Position numbers and translations under genes: made by a program. Below are positions 56,681 through 59,220 of a DNA stretch of 64,000 bases, in pieces (the first letter of the stretch is position 1; each line of letters begins with the position of its first letter). The notes beneath the pieces are model-generated. The model searched no databases and was not told the DNA's origin. It saw nothing but the letters and a program-made list of their open reading frames with translations. This DNA comes from Microbacterium sulfonylureivorans (GTDB taxonomy: Bacteria; Actinomycetota; Actinomycetes; Actinomycetales; Microbacteriaceae), in the NCBI RefSeq assembly GCF_003999995.1, contig NZ_RJAD01000001.1:1302001-1366000 (forward strand), in the 5' to 3' direction.

Positions 56681-56805
56681 TCTCCCTTTCGCGAGCCGAT
56701 CACAACGCCCTCCACTCTATCTCGCCCCCACCGACGATCCCGTCCGAAGTGCCTCGCTCGGGCAGTTCGCTGCCAATCCGCCCGCCGCCCGCGCGAGCGG
56801 CGGCG

Positions 56806-56857
56806 CCCACGGGTCGACCGCCCACGAGCGTCCAAGCCCACGGGGCGACCGCTCACG
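56806..56857. repeat. Diverged 21-bp direct repeat
   Basis: CCCACGGGTCGACCGCCCACG (written as 806-826 offset: 56806-56826) recurs at 56837-56857 with two mismatches. The unit itself starts and ends with CCCACG. Confidence 0.6.
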
Positions 56858-57106
56858 GCCGGCGGTGCGCCGCCCGTCTGCGCATCGCGGACTGACCACG
56901 GGCAGCCGTCGAACAGTCACGCCGTCGTGACGGGCGACGGCCGGCAACCCCCGTAGTGCGCAGGCGCCCGGCGGTGGAACGCCGTGGCCGCGGCCACCCT
57001 CCACCGCGGAGGTCCGACTCGCCTGATCCGCGTGAGACGAAGCTTGCCTACTCCACATCGTCGCGCGGTAGGCAGCGCCCGTCACACGTGAATCGAGACA
57101 ACAGGC

Positions 57107-57122
57107 CGTTTCACGTGAAACA
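57107..57122. other. parS site 2
   Basis: CGTTTCACGTGAAACA, with a perfect 14-bp core (57108-57121). Confidence 0.95.
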
Positions 57123-57562
57123 TGAGGACCCTCACTTTGTGGCAACGTGACCCGCGCGCCGACTGCTCGGGGGTTACACCATGGACAGCCATGTAGCCGC
57201 GCGGTTGTCCACTGGTGCACCAACCGAGGATAGGAACACCTCACCGAGGCCCATCATCTTCCGGGCGCTCTGTAGAGCTGCAGCCCGCCGACGGAGTTCG
57301 GTCGAGATGTCTCCTTGACGCGCGAGAGGATCACTGTCGCGCCCTGCCCAGTCGTGCCAGAGCCCGGTCGTTCGCAACAGGCTCGCGATCATTCGACCCA
57401 CATCGTCGCGTGACCCGCGCGGGCTTCGCGGGCGCCCCTTATGGGGGCGGGCCGTGGCGAATCTGCGCAGTGCGATGACCCGTGGATCTGACCTCCCCGA
57501 ACAAGCGACCATCGGCTTGTCCGCTGGCGCCTGCATCGACCGGTTCGTCACCAGCGGTGTGA

Positions 57563-57578
57563 TGTTTCACGTGAAACT
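57563..57578. other. parS site 3
   Basis: TGTTTCACGTGAAACT, with a perfect 14-bp core (57564-57577). Confidence 0.95.
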
Positions 57579-58098
57579 CTCCCGCGAGCGCCGTCCCAGT
57601 CACGAGCGCCGCGCATTCCGGCGCGAGGGACCGCCCGAGCCTGGAACCACCCAGGTCGCCGACTCTCCCTCGGATGGTCGTGATTCAACCTGGACGCACT
57701 TCGACACCCGGCCGCGCCGACCAGGATTCACCCCGACGCATCGGGGTGGGGAAGGGCATGCGACACCCGAACCGCCGAGCCAGAGGCCACCCGCGTGCCC
57801 GCATCGCGGCGGGCTGACGCCCCTCGACCACGCGGATGGGAGGACTCGTCGCCACCGTACGCACGGGACCGCGCGTCGGAGTAACCACGTCTGGGGTGTT
57901 GTCCTTGACCGAGCGGCAACGTGATCCGCAATCCGCCGTCCGCACCCGCCTGCACCTCCCGCGCGAACGCCCGCCGTCGATGGAGCAACGGATCATCCAT
58001 GCCGCCAGGTCGGGACACGACACTTCACAGGCCTTCGCAGCACTGCACACGAACACCAGCACGAGTACCCGCACGAACGCGAGCACGAGCAGCCGCAG

Positions 58099-58182
58099 CA
58101 CGACCACGACCACGACCACGACCACGACCACGACCACGACCACGATCACGATCACGATCACGATCACGATCACGATCACGAG
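58099..58182. repeat. 14-unit CACGAY hexamer array
   Basis: Seven CACGAC units (58099-58140), six CACGAT units (58141-58176) and one CACGAG (58177-58182) run without interruption into the parS palindrome at 58183. A degenerate CACGA-rich lead-in occupies about 58045-58098. Each unit contains CACG, the central half-site letters of parS. Confidence 0.95.
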
Positions 58183-58183
58183 A

Positions 58184-58199
58184 TGTTTCACGTGAAACA
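58184..58199. other. parS site 4
   Basis: TGTTTCACGTGAAACA, perfect, flanked by A and T to make an 18-bp palindrome. It directly abuts the hexamer array. Confidence 0.97.
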
Positions 58200-58494
58200 T
58201 GCAGCGCGCGCGGACCAGCGAGTCGGGCCCGCACGCGGACATGCACTACCGCTCAGCGCGAACACAACCATGTCCAGCGCGCGTCCAATTGCTAGCCCCC
58301 GCGCTCCTTCGTCTTGCGACGTCTGGTGCGCGCGTCTCCGATTCGGAGGAGACGACAGAGTCCGTCAATCGCGAGAATCATCAGCATGTGACCAGCATGG
58401 TCGCGTGCTGATCAGCCCGATCTGACACATCGTGCTTTCGGGGAGGGCTTGCGCACGTGGCGTGTTGGGGAGGAGGGGCCGCACCGAAACGGAG

Positions 58495-58510
58495 TGTTTC
58501 ACGTGAAACA
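58495..58510. other. parS site 5
   Basis: TGTTTCACGTGAAACA, perfect 16-bp palindrome. Confidence 0.97.
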
Positions 58511-59220
58511 TGCGCGTGCTTGCGTCCCGTTCCTCACACCCTCATCGAGCCCAACCACGCGACGGTCGAACTCCACCCGATTCGAACCGACGGCTCGGGG
58601 GCGCCGCACACACCCGCCTGCCCACCCTTGCAGCGCTCCAGTCTTCGATCGCTACGTGGTCCTCGTCGCGGAAGTACAGCACCATGACGAAGGCCCGACT
58701 GGTCACGAAACCTGCGTCAGGAAGCCTCGGCCGTCGACCGTTCGGGCTCGCTGTGCGCTCGAATCCACCGACCCGCGAGGTTAGCCGCGATAGAGCTCGG
58801 CGCGACGCCGGCCCGGGGGCGACTCGTCCTGTGGCAGCCCGAAGATGACGAGAGCTCGAAGCTGCGCCCGTCCGGCAGTGGGTGCCCTCAGGCATCAGCG
58901 GTTCGGGCATCCGTGTGCCGTGGCATTCCCCCGTGGGGTGATCGTCAGCACTCACCGGCGTTCGGCGCGCACCATCGTCGAGTGCCTGCGGAGCCACGCC
59001 ATCGCACGCGTGCCGTGACCCACGCCGGGCGCGAGCGCCGAGCACCTCGTGCGGAGAACTGAGGGTGGCGGACTTGGCCACGCATCGTGATCATCTCGGT
59101 GGTGACGCGTCCGCATCAGTACGGAGCCATCGTCGGGGAGGTATGGCCGTTCGCCATCACTCCCGCGCGACCCGACCTCGAGGCCGAGCGTGGCTCATGG
59201 GCCGGGGGTGAGGCGCCGAG

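Follow-up and report, generated by a model that had tools for sequence, protein, structure and literature searches.

Why should parA and rsmG be held some 2.5 kb apart by DNA with no recognisable gene in Microbacterium sulfonylureivorans, when the initial annotation of this locus took the spacing of these genes to be normally compact? The locus lies in a 64,000-nucleotide stretch of the 3.79-Mb genome (hereafter the window, to which all positions refer), where yidC, jag, rsmG, parA, and parB follow one another on the minus strand. An open frame on the plus strand (62703..63998), which we take to be dnaA-like from its sequence, runs off the end of the window and places the locus in the neighbourhood of oriC. 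The parB gene (54756..55721, minus strand) matches TIGR00180 (parB_part) above its cut-off with an E value of 1e-58, and rsmG (59221..59847, minus strand) matches TIGR00138 with 126.6 bits against a cut-off of 99.5. For parA (55718..56680, minus strand), the ParA-type ATPase matches each fall below their NCBIfam cut-offs, and a syntenic ParA is found in the genus and the family; the jag/eloR-like gene (59872..60393, minus strand) matches NF041568 below its cut-off (E = 1e-15). Between parA and rsmG lies a spacer of 2540 bases without coding signal (56681..59220), which adjoins parAB and stands about 3-6 kb from the dnaA-like gene. On the minus strand at 63240-63314, the Rfam family AsdA (dnaA antisense RNA) scored 27.1 bits, below its threshold (cut-off 52).

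parS sites of the window and the DNA around them

Six exact copies of the parS sequence GTTTCACGTGAAAC are present in the window, all of them within 56665-59865. Four lie inside the interval (57108..57121, 57564..57577, 58185..58198, and 58496..58509) and two at its edges, so that the arrangement initially annotated is borne out by exact matches at all six positions. The first site (56665..56678) falls inside the first codons of parA (GTG TTT CAC GTG AAA CAG), and the sixth (59852..59865) lies between the start of rsmG (59847) and jag. When the window was shuffled, parS matches averaged 0.04 with two mismatches allowed, and a count of six was reached in none of 100 shuffles; no further parS with up to two mismatches was detected in the whole genome beyond these six. 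Of the features by which a ParABS centromere is recognised, multiple palindromic parS copies, adjacent parA and parB, and a dnaA-like frame nearby are found here. The parS sites of this interval do not have duplicated surroundings, and the only repeat seen there is an array of (CACGAC)n/(CACGAT)n hexamers at 58099..58181 (13.8 copies, 98% matches by Tandem Repeats Finder), which stops 3 bases short of the fourth site.

Upstream of parA, a candidate -10 element, TAGAGT (56714..56719, minus strand), was picked out by eye, and many genomes of the genus have a similar element ahead of parA. A consensus promoter and terminator scan of 56500-60000, which covers this candidate, found no site. We infer that parA is transcribed from a promoter of its own, which would allow a spacer to sit between parA and rsmG and to grow without cutting parA off.

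Aligning the interval across relatives, a check that had been proposed with the initial annotation, set the spacer sharply apart from its flanks: the flanks align, the spacer does not, and parS sites are kept at the locus. The region from 45 to 64 kb of the window aligns almost unbroken with five relatives (G201, G017, G118, G012, and G217), and the sole unaligned block of at least 250 bases extends from 56730-56760 to 59217-59219 in these comparisons. Compared with the other 107 long intervals of the genus, the M. sulfonylureivorans interval has 46-79 bp beside parA in common with some; the other shared pieces are short stretches mostly around parS, along with hexamer repeats shared with one interval.

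Interval length and parS content in the genus and the family

Of 198 genomes of the genus, M. sulfonylureivorans included, 149 had a parA among the roughly 150 best matches listed, and in 128 it could be paired with an rsmG on the same contig (six rsmG places were supplied from another listing, four of which entered the gap pairs). Because about 150 best matches were listed, the most divergent parA and rsmG genes and fragmented genomes are missing from these counts. Among the 128 genomes, the parA-rsmG gap has a median of 1780 bp and ranges from 85 to 8658 bp. It is shorter than 300 bp in 20 (85-262 bp, with one to three parS), and in the remaining 108 it is at least 300 bp long, contains parS, and sits on a single contig. 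In a named locus of the genus, that of Microbacterium gubbeenense (L230:2208-9900), the gap measures 7.7 kb, and 11 exact parS are located 303-4669 bp before parA. The interval of genome G100 from the genus recurs without a single difference inside L229, which comes from NZ_PCPA01000010.1 of Microbacterium sp. MYb54 and thereby identifies the genus as Microbacterium.

A family sample of 100 genomes was also examined, from which M. sulfonylureivorans itself and G235 (no rsmG match) were left out; of the 98 used, 96 were paired. In these other genera of Microbacteriaceae the median gap is 142 bp, with 32 gaps of at least 300 bp and 19 of at least 1 kb, and 40 of the 96 intervals were fetched (the 32 of at least 300 bp plus eight compact ones). 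The premise that this gene order is normally compact hence holds for the other genera of the family and fails within Microbacterium, where a compact interval is the exception. The gap is typically compact in the family and typically long in the genus, and there are switches between these states. On a tree of ParA and RsmG with 168 rows, the distinction between long and compact gaps requires 15 changes or more. Nine changes are required for the label "long, in the genus" against all other rows, seven of them forced by well-supported branches. The tree was a quick one built from two proteins; it has some long branches, its family members were picked for length, and gain and loss are not distinguishable in it.

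The listed genus intervals carry one to 13 exact parS each, and the 128 loci together carry 809, a mean of 6.3 per locus. Genome-wide searches covered 80 of the other 127 genus genomes, taken as every other genome in order of gap length together with 16 more from the long end, so that the genome-wide mean for these 80 is biased upwards by the extra long-end genomes. In 77 of the 80 the genome-wide count equals the count at the locus, the exceptions being G137, G141, and G178, and the locus accounts for 547 of the 554 sites. In 99 family genomes outside the genus, the mean is 3.2 parS per whole genome. Five of these (G236, G247, G251, G252, and G317) have no exact parS genome-wide though parA is present, and their consensus may have shifted; the highest counts among the 99 are the nine dispersed parS each of G225 and G308 (genus g27, 1.4-1.5 Mb). 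Within the genus, a parS at the start of parA is found in 87 of the 128 listed genomes, in 72 of which a GTG or ATG is formed at the edge of the site, and 89 of the 128 have one immediately ahead of rsmG. A one-mismatch variant of parS, GTTCCACGTGAAAC, and its mirror form together occur 61 times in the genus loci. A half-site, GTTCCAC, is described as bound by ParB in some other species in one account (PMC7022226).

Longer intervals carry more parS (Spearman 0.64 over the 108 long intervals). The number grows less than proportionally to length, since there are 178 bp of DNA per site in intervals of 300-1000 bp and 694 bp per site in the longest class. Spacing was analysed in the 57 intervals that measure at least 900 bp, have four or more inner sites, and show no detectable duplication. 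Here the coefficient of variation of parS spacing averages 0.594, compared to 0.811 (sd 0.031) for uniform random placement, with none of 300 draws as low, and the mean smallest spacing is 206 bp as opposed to 103 bp under random placement. The sites in these 57 long intervals are therefore placed more evenly than chance, and this evenness may be a leftover of old duplication rather than a product of selection.

Throughout the genus, turnover of the spacer DNA is very rapid, whereas parS sites remain. Alignment was possible for 11 overlapping pairs of relatives, in which 23 of 46 parS are unchanged, compared to 0.6-11.5% of other 14-mers, a contrast that may be inflated where parS sites themselves anchor the alignments. 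As the other 23 sites were not kept in place, individual parS evidently come and go. At least one pair of parS with similar flanks occurs in 34 of 105 intervals of at least 600 bp, and the tandem units vary in size by species (137, 107, 142, and 208 bp, for example). The fast turnover around a conserved box that marks satellite-type DNA is thus seen at this locus, and the repeat units each bearing a box are not seen in M. sulfonylureivorans.

Readings of the interval

Taken together, these comparisons suggest that the interval is probably the centromere of the chromosome, with an array of parS dispersed over spacer DNA free of genes beside parAB. The initial annotation had wavered between an expanded centromere or ParB/SMC platform and the wreck of lost genes, and the former is the reading best supported by the sequence evidence: the whole parS set is located here, the sites are kept and spaced in a spacer that turns over, and a search for genes found none.

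The wreck alternative holds that the interval consists of decayed inserted genes or mobile elements, that it persists only because the parS inside it must be retained, and that its length has no function. Relatives provide real evidence for such insertions. A k-mer search of the intervals led to a GIY-YIG gene of about 95 aa (PF01541, E = 3e-17), present as a gene or remnant in 25 of the 128 listed intervals of the genus; among the 40 family intervals that were fetched, one has it (genome G306). The close relatives G201, G012, and G118 carry the gene, and several copies are broken, including those of G017 and G133. The other ORFs of the genus intervals include IS256-type transposases (in two intervals), RibD-like, acetyltransferase, AAA, and glyoxalase products, and there are hexamer and other short tandem arrays as well. 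An AAA-type kinase-like ORF of 180-221 aa is similar in three intervals (L124, L112, and L129, from G001, G149, and G167), with Pfam AAA_18 assigned for one. Conserved proteins encoded at this position, one of the two findings named with the initial annotation as speaking against it, are consequently found in a minority of relatives; the other, compactness as the exception, applies within the genus and not in the family. The GIY-YIG element and other insertions can be one route by which spacers arise.

In 24 of the 25 GIY-YIG intervals of the genus, the gene is accompanied by palindromes of the form TCTCGATACG..CTACTCGA and near variants, and these are found in none of the 83 long intervals without the gene. 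Searched genome-wide, the strict palindrome is present in 23 of 26 genomes with GIY-YIG at the locus and in none of 54 others, M. sulfonylureivorans among the latter. Of the three misses (G133, G193, and G018), the last two do carry palindromes in the interval, since the strict form misses variants. The pattern was derived from the GIY-YIG-bearing intervals, and the association counts take genomes as they stand, uncorrected for shared ancestry. Most palindromes point in opposite directions on the two sides of the gene, with 56 of 68 upstream copies in one orientation and 55 of 78 downstream copies in the other. G306 has no palindrome in its interval and two elsewhere in the genome. GIY-YIG homologs occur elsewhere in 16 of the 54 genomes without the gene at the locus, none of which has the strict palindrome. 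The combination of gene and palindromes can be viewed in L090, L092, L079, L087, L132, and 20 more genus intervals, and in L159. Perhaps, by analogy, the pair is an element of the REP type whose nuclease is unusual, GIY-YIG replacing the RAYT transposase. Among the best matches listed from the open PMC literature, none was found that treats REPIN, RAYT, and GIY-YIG together.

Nevertheless, we regard the wreck alternative as unlikely. A candidate gene was detected in 43 of the 108 long intervals (28 by codon score, 10 of them GIY-YIG carriers, plus 15 further GIY-YIG intervals), whereas 65 of the 108 contain no detected gene or remnant. M. sulfonylureivorans itself lacks both the GIY-YIG gene and the strict palindrome, hence also the dispersed palindromes of a REP-type system, and a GIY-YIG remnant was rejected after searches of the interval at E 0.01 and of the genome at E 1e-6 returned no match. 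Long copies of the spacer elsewhere in the genome were likewise rejected: only 37 short, weak matches were found (E up to 1), many of which fall on the hexamer array, and the best covers 58 bases at 83%. The idea of a wreck of lost genes is partly right, in that some relatives carry whole or broken insertions at this place. Lastly, passive decay does not obviously predict that parS number rises with length or that the sites are evenly spaced, and these two observations disfavour reading the interval as a mere wreck.

We consider it very improbable that the interval encodes an undetected lineage-specific short protein or structured RNA. Small lineage-specific genes do escape family libraries, and the gene of about 95 aa described above shows that some relatives have a short gene here. 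In M. sulfonylureivorans, however, none of the ten ORFs scanned in 56681-59220 reached a Pfam or NCBIfam cut-off, and the best spacer ORF scored 3.5 bits under the codon model, a value equalled in two of 20 shuffles. The best score per codon in the interval is 0.02, compared to 0.38-0.59 in eight genes of the window. A hidden gene was rejected on these grounds, and a known RNA because Rfam gave no match within the spacer; moreover, almost nothing in the interval can be aligned with close relatives. The description of about 2.5 kb without a credible gene accordingly stands. The notion that the interval is foreign DNA placed here by assembly error or contamination can be set aside almost entirely: fast-changing repeats can be misassembled, but a parS-bearing gap of at least 300 bp recurs on one contig in each of 108 of the 128 listed genus genomes, and the assembly has a completeness of 99.99 and a contamination of 0.03.

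A possible mechanism and comparison with known systems

In the CTP-clamp model, ParB loads at parS and slides away along the DNA. Applied to the centromere reading, each site would load ParB-CTP clamps, which would slide out along the neighbouring DNA free of genes, bring in SMC, and supply the cargo for ParA, and for this reason selection could maintain the number and spacing of parS. Arrays would enlarge by tandem duplication and insertion and contract by deletion, and inserted genes would be tolerated in the spacer and often decay. A long spacer does not seem essential, since the compact minority of the genus manages with 85-262 bp and one to three sites. ParB loading and SMC recruitment at parS are described in the ParABS literature (PMC7083940, PMC7022226). 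In the open PMC literature, no paper was found joining parS, ParB, Actinobacteria, and rsmG, and Microbacterium parS or ParB is absent from the titles and abstracts of the matching papers.

Eukaryotic satellite and regional centromeres consist of fast-replaced, often repetitive spacer around a short conserved protein-binding box. The Microbacterium locus resembles them in its fast-replaced spacer and in the duplicated parS surroundings of about a third of the genus intervals considered. It differs in that the box sequence here defines the site, in being much smaller, and in that M. sulfonylureivorans has no parS-bearing repeat unit. A tentative extension of the centromere reading, which we think possible but would not favour, is that Microbacterium has a counterpart of satellite centromeres in which parS units are amplified, replaced, and lost while their number and spacing are selected, and that a GIY-YIG REP-type system may drive the turnover. 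The GIY-YIG intervals resemble the REP/RAYT REPtrons outlined in PMC3733652 in having palindromes beside a nuclease-like gene, with further copies in many of the genomes concerned; in contrast to REPtrons as outlined there, the adjacent gene is of the GIY-YIG type and not a tyrosine (HUH) transposase, and it is absent from M. sulfonylureivorans.

Among actinobacteria, Corynebacterium glutamicum as described in PMC7083940 has about ten parS near oriC in one cluster, nine of ten intergenic, with ParB bound and SMC loaded. It is similar to M. sulfonylureivorans in having a multi-copy, mostly intergenic parS cluster near oriC, but there the sites span a 35-kb region 73 kb from oriC and one is intragenic, whereas here all lie within 3.2 kb and four of the six in one gene-free interval. 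In other words, the best-studied actinobacterial parS are spread across tens of kilobases of ordinary genes, while here they occupy one dispensable-looking stretch and its edges, and the length of this stretch differs a hundredfold among species of one genus. Because the whole set is located in a stretch of such variable length, the roles of parS number, spacing, and gene-free surroundings in ParB spreading and SMC loading become testable, as does the question of whether centromere DNA evolves in bacteria in the way it does in eukaryotes.

In Streptomyces, Arthrobacter, and other actinobacteria, many of the named loci have a parS directly at the parA start or close to it, as is the case here. 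Unlike M. sulfonylureivorans, most named loci from beyond the family have a gap of about 169-680 bp (1345 bp in Actinotalea), and many have more parS downstream of parA. In one genome from another genus of the family (G298, contig C16:238163-239115), five parS lie 3' of parA with spacings of 157, 158, 172, and 452 bp, which from the coordinates alone is an array in a different slot.
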